Shown here one piece after another: positions 37,487 through 45,897 of a DNA stretch of 56,755 nucleotides. Numbering within the stretch: the stretch's first letter is position 1; the number at the start of each line of letters is the position of its first letter. Under the pieces are notes generated by a model that saw only the letters and a program-made list of their open reading frames with translations, searched no databases and was not told the origin of the DNA. The DNA comes from Ferrithrix thermotolerans DSM 19514. Lineage in GTDB: Bacteria; Actinomycetota; Acidimicrobiia; Acidimicrobiales; Ilumatobacteraceae. Made by a program: the position numbers and the translations under genes. The stretch lies in assembly GCA_945862025.1 (NCBI GenBank), contig CAMAWU010000004.1:1-56755 (forward strand), written 5' to 3'.

Positions 37487-37548
37487 GACCGCACTCCCTA
37501 ATTGTATTTGATAACGCTAGTCGGGAATTTGTAAAATATTTGCTGTTA

Positions 37549-38703
37549 TCACCACTCAGCGCGCAGCGACTTGAGTGTTTCAACAAATTGAGAGTTGTTT
37601 TCGTCGTAACTAATAATTTCGCGAATTGTTTCTAAGCGAACCTTGTCCCAATCTGTATCTGAGACCGTGACCAAATAATCAAGTATTTCTTGAAATCGCT
37701 TCTCGTCAAGTCGATTTGTCCAAAATTTTCCATCGTCCTTGACTATTGCAGGCCAGCCAAACCTAAGTGCATCTGCATCAAGCAATTTTGCATCAATCAG
37801 AAGCGCAGCAGTTTTGGTACCCCGAGCTAAAGCTTCGTACCCAAGTGTGCTGCTTGTGAATACCACTATCTCTGAATTATCTATGACCTCATAACTATTT
37901 AAAGCAGATCGCCTTGGCTCTAGAGTCCAAGAGTAATTTCTCAAGAGTTTTTGATAGTAGAGATTTTCCGAAGCGAAGTCTTCATCTTTGCCGACGATTA
38001 TTAGTTCAAATTTATTTGATTTACAATATTCGGCGACGAAAATAATTGTTTGTTCTCGGCGAAGAGTAATTTGTTCATAAGTAACTGGATTATTCGGTTC
38101 ATAGTCAGAAACAATGAAATTTCCAGAGATGCTTGGTCGGTAGGTTGAAATGTATGCAATTGATTTAGATTTACCAATACTTTTTGGAATTGAATTATTC
38201 TTGAAACTGCCAATTGGGATGATGTCGCCAGAAATATATTTATGGTAAATTCTTCCGACTGCTGAGCCGAAGACGAACATGTGGTCAACATGGTTGCCCT
38301 CTAATTTGAGTTCTTGAAGTAAGTCTCCAAATAAGTCACCTCGCTCGCTCCGTATTCCATTTTGAATCATCATCGTTTGTATGTTAGGAAAACGTTTTTT
38401 TATTTGGAAAAATGGTGGATAGTTGTCAACATAAGTCAATATCAATTTTGGTTTGACAATTTTGATGTATCGCGTTGCATAATTTTGTGCACTCAGGTCT
38501 CGGTCAAAAATGCAAAGCAGAGCAACCGAGATATTTATTTCATTCTCACGAAGATCAAGGATCTGCATCTCGTTTTTTACGAAGTAGGGCATGATAACTT
38601 CGGAGCCTGTGACAAAATAAAGCAGGACATTTGTACTTCTGGGTGGAAATATTCTCCAACGAAGTTTCAATAACGACCTTAGTAATCTTAAAAATCGAAT
38701 CAT
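37549..38703 (-). CDS. 384-residue surface-carbohydrate protein, copy A (putative GT-B transferase)
   Basis: 384 residues, paralogue of the protein at 39025-40179: same length, with 38 of the first 60 residues identical by hand count. N-terminal half: NVLLYFVTG, SAQNYATRYIKIVKPKLILTYVDNYPPFFQIK and IQNG; C-terminal half: RREQTIIFVAEYCK, IIVGKDEDF and EIVVFTSSTLGYEALARGTKTA, the last like the donor-side loop of GT-B enzymes. From memory it resembles the TIGR04396 group of Leptospira surface-carbohydrate genes. A four-base ATGA overlap joins its start to the end of the decayed pseudogene upstream. Function unproven. Confidence 0.65.
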   Translation of the reverse strand: MIRFLRLLRSLLKLRWRIFPPRSTNVLLYFVTGSEVIMPYFVKNEMQILDLRENEINISVALLCIFDRDLSAQNYATRYIKIVKPKLILTYVDNYPPFFQIKKRFPNIQTMMIQNGIRSERGDLFGDLLQELKLEGNHVDHMFVFGSAVGRIYHKYISGDIIPIGSFKNNSIPKSIGKSKSIAYISTYRPSISGNFIVSDYEPNNPVTYEQITLRREQTIIFVAEYCKSNKFELIIVGKDEDFASENLYYQKLLRNYSWTLEPRRSALNSYEVIDNSEIVVFTSSTLGYEALARGTKTAALLIDAKLLDADALRFGWPAIVKDDGKFWTNRLDEKRFQEILDYLVTVSDTDWDKVRLETIREIISYDENNSQFVETLKSLRAEW

Positions 38704-39005
38704 TTTGACCAGGAAGATTCAAGTCCAGTTAAAGGACTTGGCATTTGCAAGTAATAAACAAAAAATGCGTGCTTAAATTTCTGTACCCATTTTTTAGTGA
38801 AGCAATAAGACGCAAAATCCCAATAGGTGATAGCGAGATCTGTTGACTTGGTGACGAAGAGCCCACTACCCTCAACTGTACGACTACTGATGGGGTCGGC
38901 AAAACGAGTTCGCCAATTTTTTAAGTAGTTCAAGTTAATTACCGGTTACCCAAATATCTTTGGTGTCTTTCGAGACTCTCAATCAAAGGGGATAACAGGA
39001 GGGAC
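38700..39005 (-). pseudogene. Chimeric remnant: wbpG 3' end joined to sulfotransferase-like 3' end
   Basis: This 300-base stretch holds no intact gene. Read on the minus strand, it first matches the end of the amidotransferase at 42013-43320: KIFG*PVINLNYLKN against KMFEQPIMDLNYFNN, with TAA in place of Gln. After a frameshift, WALRHQVN matches WSLRYQVK, and TTGACTTGGTGACGAAGAG (38843-38861) differs by one base from 42017-42035. It then jumps to the end of the protein at 40176-41216: PSPLTGLESSWSK against PSSLVDLESIWTR, ending in the same ATGA junction with the 384-residue gene. A 77-codon open frame (38700-38933) spans the joint but is a chance product of the debris. It marks a tandem duplication that lost hisF and most of both flanking genes. 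Confidence 0.85.
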
Positions 39006-39024
39006 CTCTTCCTAACGTTTGAGA

Positions 39025-40179
39025 TCACCATTCTGCGCGCAATGACTTGACTAATTCAACAAATTGAGAATTGTTTGTATCGTAAGAAATAATTTCTTGA
39101 ATTGTCTCTGAGCGAATCTTCTCCCAATCTACATCTGAGACCGTGAGCAAAAAATCAAGTATTTCTTCAAATCGCTGCTCGTTATATTTATTTGTCCAAA
39201 ACTTTCCATCTTCTGTCAAGTTCACTGGCCATCCGAACTTAAGAGAGGGTATTGGAATGATTTCAGCATCTAGTAAAAATCCTGCTGTTTTGTTGCCTCG
39301 CGCAAGTGATTCGTAACCAAGAGTGCTACTCGTAAAGACAACAATTTCTGACGCGTCTAATTTGTCGTAGTTGGTTGTTGAAGTTCGTCTAGAAGAAAGT
39401 TTCCATGAGAACTTATTTAATAGCCGACTGTAATAGGCCTCCTCTGCAAGGAAGTCTTCATCTTTACCGACGATTAATAAATCAAGATTGTGACTCTCAC
39501 AAAATTTAGCTAAAAAGATTATTGTCTGCTCGCGGCGATCTACTATTTCTCCATAAGTAACCGGGTGAGTCGAGATTGAATCTGGGGCAATAAATGTTCG
39601 AGGTATTCCTGCTCGATGAGTAGAGATGTATGCAAGAGTCCTTGATTGAGTTTTATTTATAGGGACTAAATTATTTTTAAAACTTCCGATCACTGTTATT
39701 TTTCCGGAAATATATTTACCATAAATAGAACCAATTGCTGATCCAAGCACAAACATGTCATCGACTTGATTCTTACCCAAGTGGGTTTGATTACTATCTT
39801 CGCTGAATAAATCATGGGGGTCTGCTCTGGCCCCATTTTGAATCAAGATGATATGTATTTCAGGAAATTTATTTTTAATTTGAAAAAATGGAGGATAGTT
39901 ATCAATAAAAGTAATTATCAATTTTGGCTTAACAATATTGATATATCGCAACGCATAATTTTGTGCGCTTAGATCTCGATCTCTGGCACACAATAGAGCC
40001 ACGGCAAGGTTAACTTCACTTTCACGTATATCTAATATTTGTATTTCTTCGCGAGAAAAATAAGGCTTAATTACATCGGCACCAGTCCGAAAGTACAGCA
40101 ACACGTTTTTCTGCCGAGGCGGCAAAATGCGCCACCGTAATTTTATTAGTGACTTAATTAGCCGCCAGTAGCGCGTCAT
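39025..40179 (-). CDS. 384-residue surface-carbohydrate protein, copy B (putative GT-B transferase)
   Basis: The second of two tandem 384-residue paralogues, with the same domain pattern as copy A: NVLLYFRTG, SAQNYALRYINIVKPKLIITFIDNYPPFFQIK, RREQTIIFLAKFCE, LIVGKDEDF and EIVVFTSSTLGYESLARGNKTA. The ends are nearly identical (NNSQFVE..KSLRAEW in both). Some stretches diverge, mainly around residues 120-135 and 190-210, which may give different specificity. ATGA overlap with the sulfotransferase-like gene upstream. It is in the more complete half of the duplication, so it is probably closer to the ancestral arrangement. Confidence 0.65.
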   Translation of the reverse strand: MTRYWRLIKSLIKLRWRILPPRQKNVLLYFRTGADVIKPYFSREEIQILDIRESEVNLAVALLCARDRDLSAQNYALRYINIVKPKLIITFIDNYPPFFQIKNKFPEIHIILIQNGARADPHDLFSEDSNQTHLGKNQVDDMFVLGSAIGSIYGKYISGKITVIGSFKNNLVPINKTQSRTLAYISTHRAGIPRTFIAPDSISTHPVTYGEIVDRREQTIIFLAKFCESHNLDLLIVGKDEDFLAEEAYYSRLLNKFSWKLSSRRTSTTNYDKLDASEIVVFTSSTLGYESLARGNKTAGFLLDAEIIPIPSLKFGWPVNLTEDGKFWTNKYNEQRFEEILDFLLTVSDVDWEKIRSETIQEIISYDTNNSQFVELVKSLRAEW

Positions 40180-41216
40180 CTAGTCCAAATAGATTCAAGA
40201 TCAACGAGTGAACTGGGCCAACGAGAATTGTAATTTCGTATTGCTTCGTGAAATTCAGTAACAGCACTCTTGGATGCAATTTTATGTATAGATGTGACAA
40301 TCTGGGTATAAATTTCTGCTTCTGACGATGACGAATTTGTAACAAATGAAAATGTTGAAGTTGACCTTCCTGCTGAAATTTGTTCGCGCGGCAACGATTG
40401 TTGTTTGAGTACCCGACTGGTATGTTTTGTAGTTGCTCGATTAAGAAAAGCTTCGAGTTCCTTTGTCACACCAGTTGGATTGGTAACTGTTTGTTCAAAA
40501 GAAACAACAAGGGTGGGTTTCTGCGAGTTCTTTTGAGTATCTATCATTTCGATCACAGACTTTTGCACTCTTGCGATTGATAACAGGGCACGGTCGGTAA
40601 TGGATGACTCCGCGAACTCACTAGCCCATTGTGCGGCAAACCATGGAATCTTTACTCCATCATGTTCATAAGACAGGGTAAATTCTCGTGATCGTTCAAA
40701 ATTCTCGAAGTAGCTACATACGTTATAAAAAAGGTGAACCGGGTGTCGGACAACTTCAATCAACTTAATTCGAGATTCATATGCTTCAAATAAAACATTC
40801 GAGACGGAAAGCAATCCGTGCGATGCAACGAGTAGAGCAAGATTTTGTGAATTGATTTTTTCGGTGATCGAATCGCCACCTTTACGGAACAATCGACCGA
40901 GGTAAGCGAGACTTCCGGGGTTGTTGCGAAAGCCGGTGTCGTCAGACCATCTTAGATTAACTTCACGACCTATGAGACTGTTGTATTGTAAGTGGTCCGC
41001 ATAAATCTTTAAAAGTGTCATAGCGGCGTCTTGGCTTATTTTGCCAGCCGCATGTGTGATGCATACGTATTCAAAGATGCCATCAACTTTCTTTTTCTCA
41101 ACTCCTGTTAAAGAGCCAACGATTGAAGTTATGACGGACTTACCACCTCCCCAGAAGCCATCAACGAAAATTACGTCATTTGTGAAAGATTTATGATGCG
41201 TCAGATCAAGACTCAT
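40176..41216 (-). CDS. P-loop sulfotransferase-like protein
   Basis: A 346-residue P-loop protein. Walker A-like GFWGGGKS (20-27) is followed by the sulfotransferase 3'-phosphate-site-like segment LIEVVRHPVHLFYNVCSYF (about 150-168). KPTLVVSFEQTVTNPTGVTKELEAFL is the usual late sulfotransferase helix pattern. It would add sulfate, or use another nucleotide donor, on the surface glycan. Coupled by ATGA overlaps to hisF upstream and to the 384-residue gene downstream. A truncated copy of its last ~30 codons lies at 38700-38790. Confidence 0.65.
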   Translation of the reverse strand: MSLDLTHHKSFTNDVIFVDGFWGGGKSVITSIVGSLTGVEKKKVDGIFEYVCITHAAGKISQDAAMTLLKIYADHLQYNSLIGREVNLRWSDDTGFRNNPGSLAYLGRLFRKGGDSITEKINSQNLALLVASHGLLSVSNVLFEAYESRIKLIEVVRHPVHLFYNVCSYFENFERSREFTLSYEHDGVKIPWFAAQWASEFAESSITDRALLSIARVQKSVIEMIDTQKNSQKPTLVVSFEQTVTNPTGVTKELEAFLNRATTKHTSRVLKQQSLPREQISAGRSTSTFSFVTNSSSSEAEIYTQIVTSIHKIASKSAVTEFHEAIRNYNSRWPSSLVDLESIWTR

Positions 41217-42040
41217 AACACAATCTTTTCATCTAAGGCGCGAACTCTCGTGGCGATATGTCGATCGATGCAAAATTTTTTGATTTCTGAAACACTAAGT
41301 CTGTCGTAGTGTAAAGAATCAGCAATTGCGACTCCAGTTGGTTCGCTAACTTGCATCAACTCCGTTAAGTGATCTAACTTGCCGAATCCGCCGCTTGCAA
41401 CCACAGGTATGTCAACTAATTTGGTTACGGCACTTACTAATTCGCAATCAAAACCGTTTTTAGTTCCTTCTCGATCCACGGAAGTTAGAAATATTTCTCC
41501 AGCACCTAATTGGGCTCCTTGTTCTGCCCATTGCAAAACATCCAGGCCAGTTCGCTCTCGCCCATTGTCGGTGTAGGCCTCCCATTTGCCTGGCACAGTT
41601 TGTTTTGCTTCGATCGATAAGACGACTGTTGAAGAGCCCCAGACATCGGAAATTTTTGTAATCAAACTTGGATTTTTAACGGCAGCCGTATTGATCGCCA
41701 CCTTGTCGGCGCCAGCGCGAAGCAAAGCTCGAGCATCTTCAACCGATCTGATGCCACCACCAACAGTCATTGGTACAAAAACAAGTTCTGTCGCACGTGT
41801 CACGACGTCTAGCAAATTATTTCGTCCATAAAGACTGGCAACGGTATCCATATAAATTATTTCATCGGCCCCATCGTTATAATACTTTTCAGCATGCACT
41901 TGCGGGTCGCCGACAATTCGCAAGCCTTCAAGGTGGATTCCTTTGATTAAATTTATGCCCTTGATATCAAGGCGAGCAATTATTCGAAGAATTTGCGGAG
42001 GAGTAAGCCGATTTATTTGACTTGGTAACGAAGAGACCAT
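41213..42040 (-). CDS. HisF-like subunit 1 of an N-acetyl-sugar amidotransferase
   Basis: A 275-residue (beta/alpha)8 barrel of the HisF family. RIIARLDIKGINLIKGIHLEG replaces the histidine-pathway start; the first active-site Asp (Asp25) and the second (in LTSVDREGTKNGFD) are kept, and the phosphate sites GGGIRS and ASGGFG are visible. Its place after a WbpG-like gene, and no histidine genes nearby, indicate a role in ammonia channelling to sugar acetamidino formation. The start lies 28 bases inside the wbpG gene; the stop overlaps the sulfotransferase-like gene by four bases. Confidence 0.83.
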   Translation of the reverse strand: MVSSLPSQINRLTPPQILRIIARLDIKGINLIKGIHLEGLRIVGDPQVHAEKYYNDGADEIIYMDTVASLYGRNNLLDVVTRATELVFVPMTVGGGIRSVEDARALLRAGADKVAINTAAVKNPSLITKISDVWGSSTVVLSIEAKQTVPGKWEAYTDNGRERTGLDVLQWAEQGAQLGAGEIFLTSVDREGTKNGFDCELVSAVTKLVDIPVVASGGFGKLDHLTELMQVSEPTGVAIADSLHYDRLSVSEIKKFCIDRHIATRVRALDEKIVL

Positions 42041-43320
42041 TGGCCTTTATTGTACGACCATAAATGCGGTGAGCGAAACGAGTCTGCCAAGTTATTGAAA
42101 TAGTTGAGATCCATGATCGGCTGTTCAAACATTTTTGAAGCTTGGGGGAATTCTTTCTCGGGGATACTTAAGTATGCAAATATTTCGTCTGAGAACCTGG
42201 TCGGATATTCGCCATCAAATCTTTGCGCGAGTGCGACGCCTTCTTCACGATTGATATCTCCTGAGCGAATCTCTTGAGCAGCATCGTAAGTTGCACGGCC
42301 GATTCCATATTTTATAAAAGTTGTGTAGTAATGAAAGTCATCAATTCGATCGTCAATTGAGTTGTACTTGCTATATGTCCCTGGCGTGCGCTCGGGCGAG
42401 GCTTCAAAACCTCCGTGCTCGACGGAGTAGTAATAGCAACCTTGCGGATGCCACTTTACGTAGTAGCCGAGATAGTGAACTTCAATTCCAAGTTTTTCTA
42501 GTCCTGCTGGGTTCGCTGGCAAATAAGGATCTAGGTCTACATCTTCTAAACCAAAGTCGGTAGTGAGGTCTTTGATTGAAGTTCCACCTAGATGGATTGA
42601 AGACTTTTCTGGAGCAGAAAAATACTTCCACGATCTTTTGGCAGAGTCCGCATCACCGATTGGGTTTCCGTATTCAGCTTCGTTCTCTCCATAAAAAACT
42701 AAAGGTATTTGGTGCAACACTGCCATTTTTGGAGCCAATGACTTTTGCCCGAGAATGAACGCTTGAAATGGATGAAAAAGATTTTCAACGGCGAGTCGAG
42801 TTAGAAGTCGGTGTACGCGGCCATTTGGCGTGCAAAGGTAATTATCAAAGCCTGCATGAATCCATCGCTGAAAGTTTCGCCAGCCCCATTCGGTGTAAAC
42901 ATGTGGCGCCCATGTAACTGTCAGTGGGTGCATACCGTATTTGTATTTCAGCATGTGGGCTGCAACGAAACTATCTTTGCCGCCTGAACCCGGCACAAGA
43001 CAGTCGTATGACCCGTCTTTGCTTCGGTGTCGGTCGCATAGTTCTCGAAGTTCAGCGTCTCTGGCATCCCAGTCGGTAATAGATTTCTTTTCGGCGACGC
43101 GACACGCATCACAAATATTTTCAGTATCAATATGAATCGCTTGTTTAACGGAGCCAGCGGTGTGCTGAAACTCAATCGCCGAAATTGGTTTCTGATTTGA
43201 TGTCACGCATCGTTGGCAAAAACTAACTTTCTCGGGTAAACCATATTTTGCGGTCAGCGGTGCTTTGGATGGCTCAAAATCTTGAATATTTATAAATCTT
43301 GATTTTGGAAACAAACTCAC
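42013..43320 (-). CDS. WbpG-type N-acetyl-sugar amidotransferase 1
   Basis: 435 residues, PP-loop family. CQRCVTSNQKP and CDACRVAEKK are Cys pairs; VPGSGGKDSFVAAHML carries the ATP loop SGGKDS. FYGENEAEYGNP is the conserved WbpG pattern. It turns an acetamido group into acetamidino with ammonia from HisH/HisF partners. GTG at 43320 is shown; TTG at 43314 is possible, because AAAGGGGTGA spans the GTG and would be an excellent ribosome site for that TTG. Its C-terminal end recurs, decayed, at 38843-39005. Confidence 0.86.
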   Translation of the reverse strand: MSLFPKSRFINIQDFEPSKAPLTAKYGLPEKVSFCQRCVTSNQKPISAIEFQHTAGSVKQAIHIDTENICDACRVAEKKSITDWDARDAELRELCDRHRSKDGSYDCLVPGSGGKDSFVAAHMLKYKYGMHPLTVTWAPHVYTEWGWRNFQRWIHAGFDNYLCTPNGRVHRLLTRLAVENLFHPFQAFILGQKSLAPKMAVLHQIPLVFYGENEAEYGNPIGDADSAKRSWKYFSAPEKSSIHLGGTSIKDLTTDFGLEDVDLDPYLPANPAGLEKLGIEVHYLGYYVKWHPQGCYYYSVEHGGFEASPERTPGTYSKYNSIDDRIDDFHYYTTFIKYGIGRATYDAAQEIRSGDINREEGVALAQRFDGEYPTRFSDEIFAYLSIPEKEFPQASKMFEQPIMDLNYFNNLADSFRSPHLWSYNKGQWSLRYQVK

Positions 43321-43348
43321 CCCTTTACTGTACTTTCGTAATCGTTAA

Positions 43349-44137
43349 TCAGAGTGCGTTCTTTATTAAATTAAAATTCGGCAAGTCAATACCTAGGCTC
43401 ACAAGTTGTGCACGTGCTGAACCAAGTCCATCACCCATGAAGTTAAGTAGATTCGCCGTCGCAACCGCATCAACGCGAGCGTCAATTAATCCTTCGGCTA
43501 AATGTGAGTAATTGCCAACGCCACCACTGATAATAACTGGGATCTCAAATAGTTCGGGAAGGCAATTAAGAAGTTCAATTTGAAATCCGTTTCCTGTGCC
43601 GTCACGGTCAATCGAGTTAATACAAATCTCTCCGATTGCTAGATCTGAACATTGTTCTAAAAAATTTGTGAGAGTTAAATTAGTCAGGTTTGACCCATTA
43701 TTTGTTGCAATGTAAAAGTTGCCTTCAATTTGCTTACAGTCGACAGAGGCGATTATGCATTGACGACCGAATTCTCTAGCTAGTTCGAAGATAAGTTGCT
43801 GGTTGCTGTGCAACGCGCTATTCACGACTATTTTGTCAGCGCCTGAGCGAAGTAATTTTGTTGCATCTGCAACCGAGTTGATTCCACCTCCTGCGGCAAT
43901 CGGCGCAAAGCAATCATTGGTTAAAGTTTTTAGAACTTCTGAAAACTCATCGCGATTTCTAGCACTGCGGCTTACATCCAGAACAATTAATTCATCGATC
44001 GAAAAACCAACATTCGAAAAACCATAATTTTTTTCGAGCCAGTCAATGTCGCCAACTTTTTGAAGTCTGAAATTTCGTGAGAGCATGAACGAGCCACTGT
44101 CGTAAAGGAGTGTGAAAATGAGTCTTTTCTTTGCCAT
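43349..44137 (-). CDS. HisF-like subunit 2, first catalytic Asp replaced
   Basis: A 262-residue HisF-type barrel. GGGIN and SGGVGN hold the phosphate sites; INSIDRDGTGNGF keeps the second catalytic Asp. The start MAKKRLIFTLLYDSGSFML aligned with HisF (RIIPCLDVRDG) has Leu where the general acid/base Asp11 should be, so the histidine-pathway cyclase reaction is unlikely. It fits the non-histidine HisF partners of WbpG. Placed 3 bases after hisH and ahead of amidotransferase 1. Confidence 0.85.
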   Translation of the reverse strand: MAKKRLIFTLLYDSGSFMLSRNFRLQKVGDIDWLEKNYGFSNVGFSIDELIVLDVSRSARNRDEFSEVLKTLTNDCFAPIAAGGGINSVADATKLLRSGADKIVVNSALHSNQQLIFELAREFGRQCIIASVDCKQIEGNFYIATNNGSNLTNLTLTNFLEQCSDLAIGEICINSIDRDGTGNGFQIELLNCLPELFEIPVIISGGVGNYSHLAEGLIDARVDAVATANLLNFMGDGLGSARAQLVSLGIDLPNFNLIKNAL

Positions 44138-44140
44138 GAT

Positions 44141-44767
44141 TTATCTTTCGAGAAAATTCTTTAAAAGATGAAGCCCTGTTGACTGGCTCTTCTCAGGATG
44201 AAACTGAGTACCAGATATTTGGCCCTGCTCAAATGCCGCAACAAATTCAGTGCCATGATGACATGTGGCAACGCCCTTGATAGTTGGAGTCAGCCCCATG
44301 AAATATGAGTGAACAAAATAGAAGCATGACTCGCTAGGGATACTGCTGAAAAGCTTTGTGTTTGAGTCATGCTTAACTTCGCTGAACCCAACATGTGGAA
44401 TCTTCAATCTTGTATTTGCATCATTAGTAAATTTTTGCACCGTGTTTGGAACCAGTCCGAGTCCTTGTGTGTCACCATCTTCTGAACTTGTCGAACCAAG
44501 CAGTTGCATACCTAAGCAAATTCCGAGAAGTTTGGTGTCTAGTTGAGATAGCGATTGAAGAATGGCCTGATCAATTGAGTTTTTTCGGATTGCTTCCATT
44601 GCGCGTCGAAACGAACCAACGCCAGGAAGTATCAGGAATTTTGCTGAAGAAATTTCTTTTGCGCTTGTAGTGATGTGAGGTTCGGCACCGAGATGGCGAA
44701 TCGCACTGGCAACCGACCAAAGATTGCCCATGCCGTAATCAATGACTACGACCTGTTTTTTGCTCAC
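44141..44767 (-). CDS. hisH: HisH-like glutaminase of the amidotransferase system
   Basis: A 208-residue class I glutamine amidotransferase. DYGMGNLWSV (10-19), LPGVGSF (48-53), the nucleophile Cys84 in GICLGMQ, and His190 and Glu192 in FHPEKSQ make the full catalytic triad. It releases ammonia from glutamine for HisF/WbpG. It is the only HisH in the window and so must serve two HisF and two WbpG proteins, unless another is elsewhere. GTG start, sharing one base with the stop of the upstream amidotransferase (TAGTG). Confidence 0.92.
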   Translation of the reverse strand: MSKKQVVVIDYGMGNLWSVASAIRHLGAEPHITTSAKEISSAKFLILPGVGSFRRAMEAIRKNSIDQAILQSLSQLDTKLLGICLGMQLLGSTSSEDGDTQGLGLVPNTVQKFTNDANTRLKIPHVGFSEVKHDSNTKLFSSIPSESCFYFVHSYFMGLTPTIKGVATCHHGTEFVAAFEQGQISGTQFHPEKSQSTGLHLLKNFLER

Positions 44768-45879
44768 TATCTAATTGTAAAGGTTGGCTTCCATCGGCCA
44801 TCTTTTTTTGTAAATAGAGATGTATTTGTCCAACGATCAATTACATCTTCGAACTCGCCCAAGTTCATTTTGTAGTAGTCAAGGTATGCATCAATGTTTT
44901 CTTGTGGATATAAACCGTCGTAAAGTTTGACAAGGTTTATTGCCTGGTCGCGAGTCATTGCCCCTCGACGAATTTCGATTCCTGCGTCTTGCGTTGCGCG
45001 ACCGAAACCAAACTTTAAGTACATCATGTAGGCGTGGAGCGAATATAGCGCTTGGTCGTTTTGCGCAAAGTTTGTGAATGTTCCTGAATTTGTATCCGTT
45101 GCTTCAATTAATCCACAGTGCTCTTTTGCAACAAGATAATTTCTGTATGGATCCCAGTTTTCAAAATATGACCAGTGTGTGATCTTCAGTTCACCATCGC
45201 CGATTTCGTCTTTTGATGGAAAGCGGAAAAATGGCAGGGCTTCGTTTTCTAGTTTGGCTTCTTTGAATACGAGATCTTGGCCGCCTTCGAAGTAAATATC
45301 GCGGATATACCCAACATCATAAAATGGTTTGTTCTTTAGGGCGGTCGAACCACCGTATTCGGTTTCCCCTTCTTCACCATAAAAGATTAAAGAGATATTT
45401 AATTGTGCCGCAATTTTTAGAGGTCCCGTTTTAATTGCCATCAGCCAACCAAAATATGGAAATCCTTTGTGAATGAAACCAATTTTATTAAGTGTGCTCA
45501 TCACATCACTAGCGGGACTGATTTGTATGTGGTTAAATCCACTCGCAATAAAGTTTTTGAGATTTTGATTGCCTAAATCAAGAGCTAGCCCCGGGGTGAT
45601 TGTGACCGCAAGAGGGTGCATGCCATAAACATTTTTTAATTGGTGTGCGACATAAGAACCATCTTTACCACCGCTTACTGGCACCACACAATCAAACGAA
45701 CCGTCTGAAGACCGATGTGTATCTAAAATTTGTTTGAGTTCTGTTTTTCGGTCCGACCAATCTAATTTTTTCTTTTCTTCCGACCATTGACATGCATTGC
45801 ACCAACCGCTAGAATCAAATGTGATTCGCGGTCGGGTCGACATATTCAAACAATTCGTACACCAAAAAATCTCACTCAT
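44767..45879 (-). CDS. WbpG/PtmG-type N-acetyl-sugar amidotransferase 2
   Basis: 370 residues, PP-loop family, with CTNCLNMSTRP and CNACQWSEEK Cys pairs (zinc-like), VPVSGGKDGSYVAHQL as ATP loop, and FYGEEGETEYGG. It directly follows the ptmA-like gene and precedes hisH and hisF2, so together they should make the acetamidino group on legionaminic acid or its precursor, as PtmG does in Campylobacter. ATG at 45879 is preferred to a TTG at 45885 (two more residues). Differs enough from amidotransferase 1 to be an old paralogue. Confidence 0.86.
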   Translation of the reverse strand: MSEIFWCTNCLNMSTRPRITFDSSGWCNACQWSEEKKKLDWSDRKTELKQILDTHRSSDGSFDCVVPVSGGKDGSYVAHQLKNVYGMHPLAVTITPGLALDLGNQNLKNFIASGFNHIQISPASDVMSTLNKIGFIHKGFPYFGWLMAIKTGPLKIAAQLNISLIFYGEEGETEYGGSTALKNKPFYDVGYIRDIYFEGGQDLVFKEAKLENEALPFFRFPSKDEIGDGELKITHWSYFENWDPYRNYLVAKEHCGLIEATDTNSGTFTNFAQNDQALYSLHAYMMYLKFGFGRATQDAGIEIRRGAMTRDQAINLVKLYDGLYPQENIDAYLDYYKMNLGEFEDVIDRWTNTSLFTKKDGRWKPTFTIR

Positions 45880-45897
45880 TAGCAACTTGCCCTTGAA

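Follow-up and report, generated by a model that had tools for sequence, protein, structure and literature searches.

A chimeric gene remnant between two 384-residue paralogues of a glycan locus in Ferrithrix thermotolerans and its probable origin in the joining of two cassettes

Two genes encoding paralogous proteins of 384 residues, 384A and 384B, lie side by side in the window (the whole stretch of 56,755 nucleotides of Ferrithrix thermotolerans DSM 19514 analysed here), and the question raised by the locus is how the second family member was gained and what the broken sequence between the two genes records. A preliminary description read that sequence as the trace of a unit of four genes, wbpG, hisF, a sulfotransferase-like gene and a 384 gene, doubled in tandem. 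Its view that a second block of this kind lost most of three genes and kept the 384 gene is well supported, as is its use of that block to account for the two 384-residue genes; the proposed doubling of the adjacent unit within this lineage lacks such support. We consider it probable that 38700-39020 marks where a second, divergent cassette of this glycan locus once stood, a scar formed by the joining of two cassette types, B and A.

Make-up of the remnant

The interval 38700-39020 on the minus strand is a chimeric remnant of about 320 bases, composed of the worn-down ends of three genes, which follow one another in the usual gene order (wbpG 3' end, hisF 5' end, sulfotransferase-like 3' end) and retain the wbpG/hisF overlap of intact loci (Table 1). 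The scar spans the distance from the stop of 384B (39025) to the start of 384A (38703), and everything between the inside of hisF and the final 20 codons of the sulfotransferase-like gene is absent from it. The wbpG piece has lost about 50 nt internally and carries a one-base frame slip near 38922 as well as in-frame stops. The event is of an ordinary kind, with unusually clear traces.

Table 1. Features of the remnant and of the intact genes on either side, in window coordinates
Feature	Coordinates	Strand	Description
384A	37549..38703	-	intact, 384 residues, TIGR04441 (LA_1612 family), A clade, GT-B-like fold matches
Sulfotransferase-like remnant	38700..38759	-	last 20 codons of second gene; ATGA with 384A start
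Stretch without gene assignment	38760..38798	-	39 nt; expected site of hisF/sulfotransferase-like deletion junction
hisF remnant, 5' end	38799..38866	-	about 23 codons of second hisF, overlaps wbpG end
wbpG remnant, 3' end	38839..39020	-	about last 80 codons of second wbpG, TIGR03573 type
384B	39025..40179	-	intact paralogue, TIGR04441, B clade, 61% identical to 384A
Sulfotransferase-like gene, cassette B	40176..41216	-	intact; best Pfam match PF00685
hisF-like gene, cassette B	41213..42040	-	intact, HisF/WbuZ type
wbpG, cassette B	42013..43320	-	intact, TIGR03573 (N-acetyl sugar amidotransferase)

On the alignments, the wbpG piece is genuine beyond doubt. It matches the end of the window's own wbpG at 75% over 89 nt (E 3e-11), which bears out the earlier recognition of a broken wbpG end with frame slip and stops, and in local alignment against 11 wbpG ends of the genus the window remnant scored 49-144 and the remnant found in a second genome, G023, 78-140, with shuffle maxima of 23-37 (for the window remnant, the best of 200 shuffles was 23-35). 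When the window was scanned on both strands as about 113,400 words of matching length, the last 75 nt of wbpG fell on 38839-38913 with 54/75 matches for the own copy, 56 for G020:C35 and 58 for G026, against 35-37 for the best non-wbpG word, and the segment from -128 to -75 fell on 38913-38965 with 33-41/53, against 28-30 for the best other word. Further upstream, the segment from -240 to -180 of G026 found 38961-39020 with 37/60 (best other 31), while the own and G020:C35 copies gave 30-31/60 there, which is background.

The preliminary description took hisF to be missing from the scar, which is not so: the best window word for hisF nt 29-68 is 38799-38838, with 29/40 for G026 (next 22) and 28/40 for G020:C35 (next 23). 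In the same scan the corresponding segments of the window's own hisF and of the hisF of G004 did not find 38799-38838.

The sulfotransferase piece is shorter and the weakest of the scar, and comparison with the window's own gene alone leaves it marginal (34/60 to the own tail, with the next word at 30; an unanchored local alignment scored 20 against 30 for shuffles, not above chance). It is accepted because position, the ATGA junction and relatives support it. The last 60 nt of the second sulfotransferase copy of G028:C140 have 38700-38759 as their best word with 42/60 (next 32), compared with 37/60 to the window's intact sulfotransferase-like gene; the G020:C35 tail matched the piece at 37/60 (best other 32), and local scores were 42 for the G028:C140 second copy (shuffles 26) and 40 for G013 (shuffles 28). 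Ungapped, the tails of G026, G013, G002 and G027 gave 8-17/60, which is uninformative as their end lengths or coordinates differ, and the comparison omitted the G020:C16 second copy (cut) and G010 (coordinates without stop). A longer piece of about 30 codons, aligned by eye, was rejected: its part from -100 to -60 found nothing in the word scan and was therefore left without assignment. The earlier reading of a sulfotransferase-like end with its ATGA junction thus holds, though less strongly than that of the wbpG end, and of the predicted DNA matches beyond chance to the window's own gene ends, that of wbpG is clear and that of the sulfotransferase-like gene marginal.

Among the intact genes, the PF00685 match of the sulfotransferase-like gene lies below cut-off (E 0.0044, 16.9 bits vs 22), and a PDB sequence search with its protein returned 0 matches at E up to 1. 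Positions 41213-45885 hold two WbpG/HisF pairs and a single HisH gene. Between 384A and the dehydrogenase gene, the spacer 37487-37548 contains 19 bases, ATTCCCGACTAGCGTTATC on the minus strand, that are identical in six loci compared, A and B type included; a promoter or other site is possible.

Locus forms in the genus and the probable joining of two cassettes

The comparison of the locus covered 29 genomes of the genus, mostly incomplete MAGs, in which it occurs in three forms: (i) wbpG-hisF-sulfotransferase-384 directly after SDR (G020:C35, G026, G022), (ii) wbpG2-hisH-hisF2 ahead of these four genes (G004 and G002; also G027, G019 and G001, where the 384 gene is cut or out of view), and (iii) joined loci. 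At the three loci of the first form only the first WbpG/HisF pair was found, and no HisH. Ten loci show a whole first 384 gene and DNA beyond it: in 6 of the 10 the dehydrogenase gene follows directly, without any scar in between (G028:C11, G020:C35, G004, G013, G002, G022), in 2 a wbpG2-like gene comes next and then a second sulfotransferase gene (G028:C140, where a second 384 gene follows, and G020:C16, where the contig ends), and the remaining 2 carry the remnant (window, G023). An eleventh locus with a cut 384 gene, G027:C412, also runs on to the dehydrogenase gene.

Several further observations concern these loci. The third, wbpG2-like amidotransferase gene between 384B and the second sulfotransferase gene lies at L033 3056-5221 (G028) and L035 10550-12418 (G020) and represents another form of joined locus. 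Two locus versions occur within single MAGs (L033/L034 in G028, L035/L036 in G020), reflecting either mixed strains or two loci. The wbpG of G027 and the SDR of G004 each appear as two pieces in tblastn (L044 2482-3785 and L037 3884-4731), from real breaks or sequencing errors.

In the tree of 384 genes, 384A falls in a clade with G023, the second copy of G028:C140 and G020:C35 (99/96), and 384B groups with six others (90/92); members of both clades also occur singly at this locus elsewhere in the genus. This tree omitted the G027 and G010 fragments and matches at about 25-36% identity, and the wbpG tree omitted G027 (split), G028, G005 and G006 (cut), the G025 second copy (cut), and G001 and G019 (whole). 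Compared across 159 nt that cover the wbpG end and the hisF start, the window remnant matches G020:C35 at 122/159, G026 at 118/159 and its own copy at 104/159; the G023 remnant matches G020:C35 and G026 at 122 each and its own copy at 107, with the G001 copy (long locus type, 384 not seen) third at 111/159. When 243 nt of the G023 remnant were searched at the DNA level against the 29 genomes, the best matches outside the window and G023 genomes were G020:C35 (E 3e-29) and G026 (E 8e-29); the window's own wbpG reached E 2e-16. By these comparisons the remnant and 384A are nearest to an alternative cassette, A, as seen in G020:C35, and the window's intact genes belong to cassette B.

Contigs C16 and C35 of MAG G020 are alike over 2.76 kb (93%) up to just past SDR, with neuA and SDR 97% identical (dS 0.09 and 0.13). 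Beyond SDR, one has the long cassette with 384B and the other the short cassette with a 384A-type gene, at 77% DNA identity in wbpG and 64% in 384. The gene content thus differs behind a near-identical left flank, the right flank being absent from C16, in a MAG that may mix strains; if the bin is sound, both cassettes would occur behind one flank in close relatives. With neuA and SDR at 97% and A or B genes behind them, the locus looks exchangeable. Between the window and G020:C16 and G004, dS is 0.68-1.03 in hisF2, wbpG and hisF, intermediate in SDR (1.47), wbpG2 (1.57-1.73) and hisH (1.15), and 2.0-3.0 in neuA, the sulfotransferase gene and, for G004 only, the dehydrogenase gene. Transfer between species may have affected the central part of the cassette; uneven constraint at synonymous sites is an alternative. 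The flank-gene identities do not indicate which of the two cassettes, A or B, originally occupied the site.

We infer the order and number of events, the parental breakpoints and the reason for the persistence of 384A as follows. The genus has two cassette types at this site, A comprising neuA-SDR-wbpG-hisF-sulfotransferase-384A and B having wbpG2-hisH-hisF2 in front of wbpG, plus 384B. Recombination would have brought in a B cassette with one border after SDR and the other within the middle of an A-type wbpG, which would explain the observed gene order: 384B would run straight into the last 80 codons of wbpG-A, at about codon 357. This would have left wbpG, hisF and the sulfotransferase-like gene of cassette A redundant; wbpG-A would have broken, and a deletion of about 1.7 kb (its size estimated from intact genes) would have fused the start of hisF-A to the last 20 codons of sulfotransferase-A. 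The putative GT-B-fold transferase 384A would have been kept beside 384B, perhaps for its own linkage, as transferases set linkages and modification enzymes could serve both cassettes. Counting against the joining model, 384B and the second sulfotransferase gene of G028:C140 and G020:C16 are separated by a wbpG2-like gene rather than by wbpG-hisF, and G020 and G028 are MAGs possibly mixing strains; the predicted intermediate, a B cassette followed by an intact A block, is shown by no contig of the 29 genomes.

An unlikely but serious alternative is an older tandem duplication, in which the four-gene unit doubled before the B-clade species diverged, most lineages lost a copy, and the lineage of the window and G023 lost three genes of one copy. 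The gene order is consistent with it, recombination can collapse tandem copies and leave no scar, and the trees of 159 nt tolerate it: grouping the remnant with all B-type copies gave p-AU 0.288 in a first tree, without G001, G019 and G027, and 0.156 in a second that added all three. Grouping it with the A types G020:C35 and G026 gave 0.175 and 0.143. Both groupings score slightly below the free tree, where the remnant, the A types and the B types form one supported group (97/97; 98/97) whose inner fork is open on 159 nt. The older duplication requires several losses, however, with six whole-384 loci reaching the dehydrogenase gene free of any scar, and G020:C35 has only A genes after a flank that scarcely differs from the one preceding the B genes on the other contig, a pattern resembling cassette exchange. 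The intact double repeat of the four genes that the preliminary description expected in related genomes was not seen in the contigs of the 29, many of them incomplete.

Age, decay and reading frame of the remnant

The genome G023, of another species of the genus, holds the same remnant in the same place (321 nt, 86.6% identical, 0 gaps), between 384 genes that are 94% identical to those of the window. The frame slip and two later stops are common to both remnants, with further stops in that of the window, and the remnant therefore predates the split between the two. At 43 differences in 325 nt (distance 0.146), its dN/dS in the three frames is 0.78, 0.64 and 1.06, compared with 0.04-0.21 (dS 0.105-0.235) for nine neighbouring genes, and the substitutions look near-neutral. 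The lack of gaps is no sign of constraint, because the whole 19.7-kb alignment of the window and G023 has 3 gap columns.

Either origin would be compatible with retention of the remnant as a short leader frame, with re-initiation of 384A translation at the ATGA where the frame ends, and to this we give a slight chance. The ATGA-ending frame is open over 81 codons in the window and 103 in G023, both genomes have TTG 77 and ATG 14 codons before the stop, and 306 of 22,249 windows of 81 codons (1.4%) are open when 19 window genes are read in their alternative frames. With all 104 readable codons included, dN/dS is 0.64, a weak hint of selection, with changes of 14/13/14 by codon position. Over the last 81 codons, however, the changes are 10/11/7 and dN/dS is 0.98 (bootstrap 0.45-3.26, wide), so that selection on the frame is unsupported there, and an ungapped remnant would be expected anyway. 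A small chance is what we allow the broader proposal that three dead genes were fused into a coupling frame keeping 384A translated, with a glycan made using both 384-type proteins.

That the neighbouring unit was recently duplicated in tandem within the lineage of the window itself, as first proposed, is barely credible, although gene order and the ATGA junction are alike. The remnant is not a sister of the window's own genes: forcing 384A and 384B of the window and G023 into one clade was rejected (p-AU 0.0095), as was placing the remnant wbpG/hisF as sister of the own copies (p-AU 0.0011 in the first remnant tree and 0.0005 with the three added rows, the verdict unchanged), tests that uneven rates on 159 nt and long branches could mislead. 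The two 384 proteins are also just 61% identical. Chance resemblance or assembly error has a negligible probability despite the sulfotransferase piece scoring below shuffles in local alignment with the window's own gene, given the word scans and the same remnant in the MAG of another species, which rules out an assembly error as the source of the scar.

The 384 proteins and comparison with known systems

Both 384 proteins match TIGR04441, the LA_1612 family putative O-antigen biosynthesis protein, a name that states no activity, with 336 bits for 384A and 297 bits for 384B (cut-off 150). The structure model of 384A (mean pLDDT 80, pTM 0.73) has TagF as its best Foldseek match (E 2e-07, TM 0.51, 9% identity), followed by UDP-GlcNAc 2-epimerases, with polysialyltransferase at ranks 16 and 24 (TM about 0.5, 9-15% identity). 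The model suggests that 384A is likely a GT-B-fold protein, and fold matches and gene setting together point to a likely transferase. Other loci of the window's genome hold a distant 384 homologue (about 29% identical; L082 5497-6624) and, at a contig end, a second sulfotransferase-like gene (L081 9944-10261).

If the scar arose by joining, it offers a base-level view of how a second member of a surface-sugar family is gained: two cassette versions come together, modification genes that are no longer needed degrade, and the additional member of the family is retained. A pair of adjacent paralogues separated by a remnant is not necessarily the product of in-place duplication, even where gene order points that way.

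One account of Salmonella O-antigen clusters describes wzy remnants in groups B1 and D1 and an H-repeat remnant at the D2 junction (PMC3715488). The locus is like these in having broken gene pieces in a surface-glycan cluster, there attributed to recombination of cluster forms and serial deletions. It is unlike the junction described there, with its H-repeat element, in that the scar joins three gene ends and includes only 39 nt without assignment. In aquatic prokaryotes, replacement flexible genomic islands for exposed structures are exchanged between related strains by homologous recombination (PMC4033161). Unlike in such islands as described there, two cassettes would have been joined here, rather than one replacing another. 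Gene remnants and island exchange of this sort have thus already been described, and the scar is a further case.
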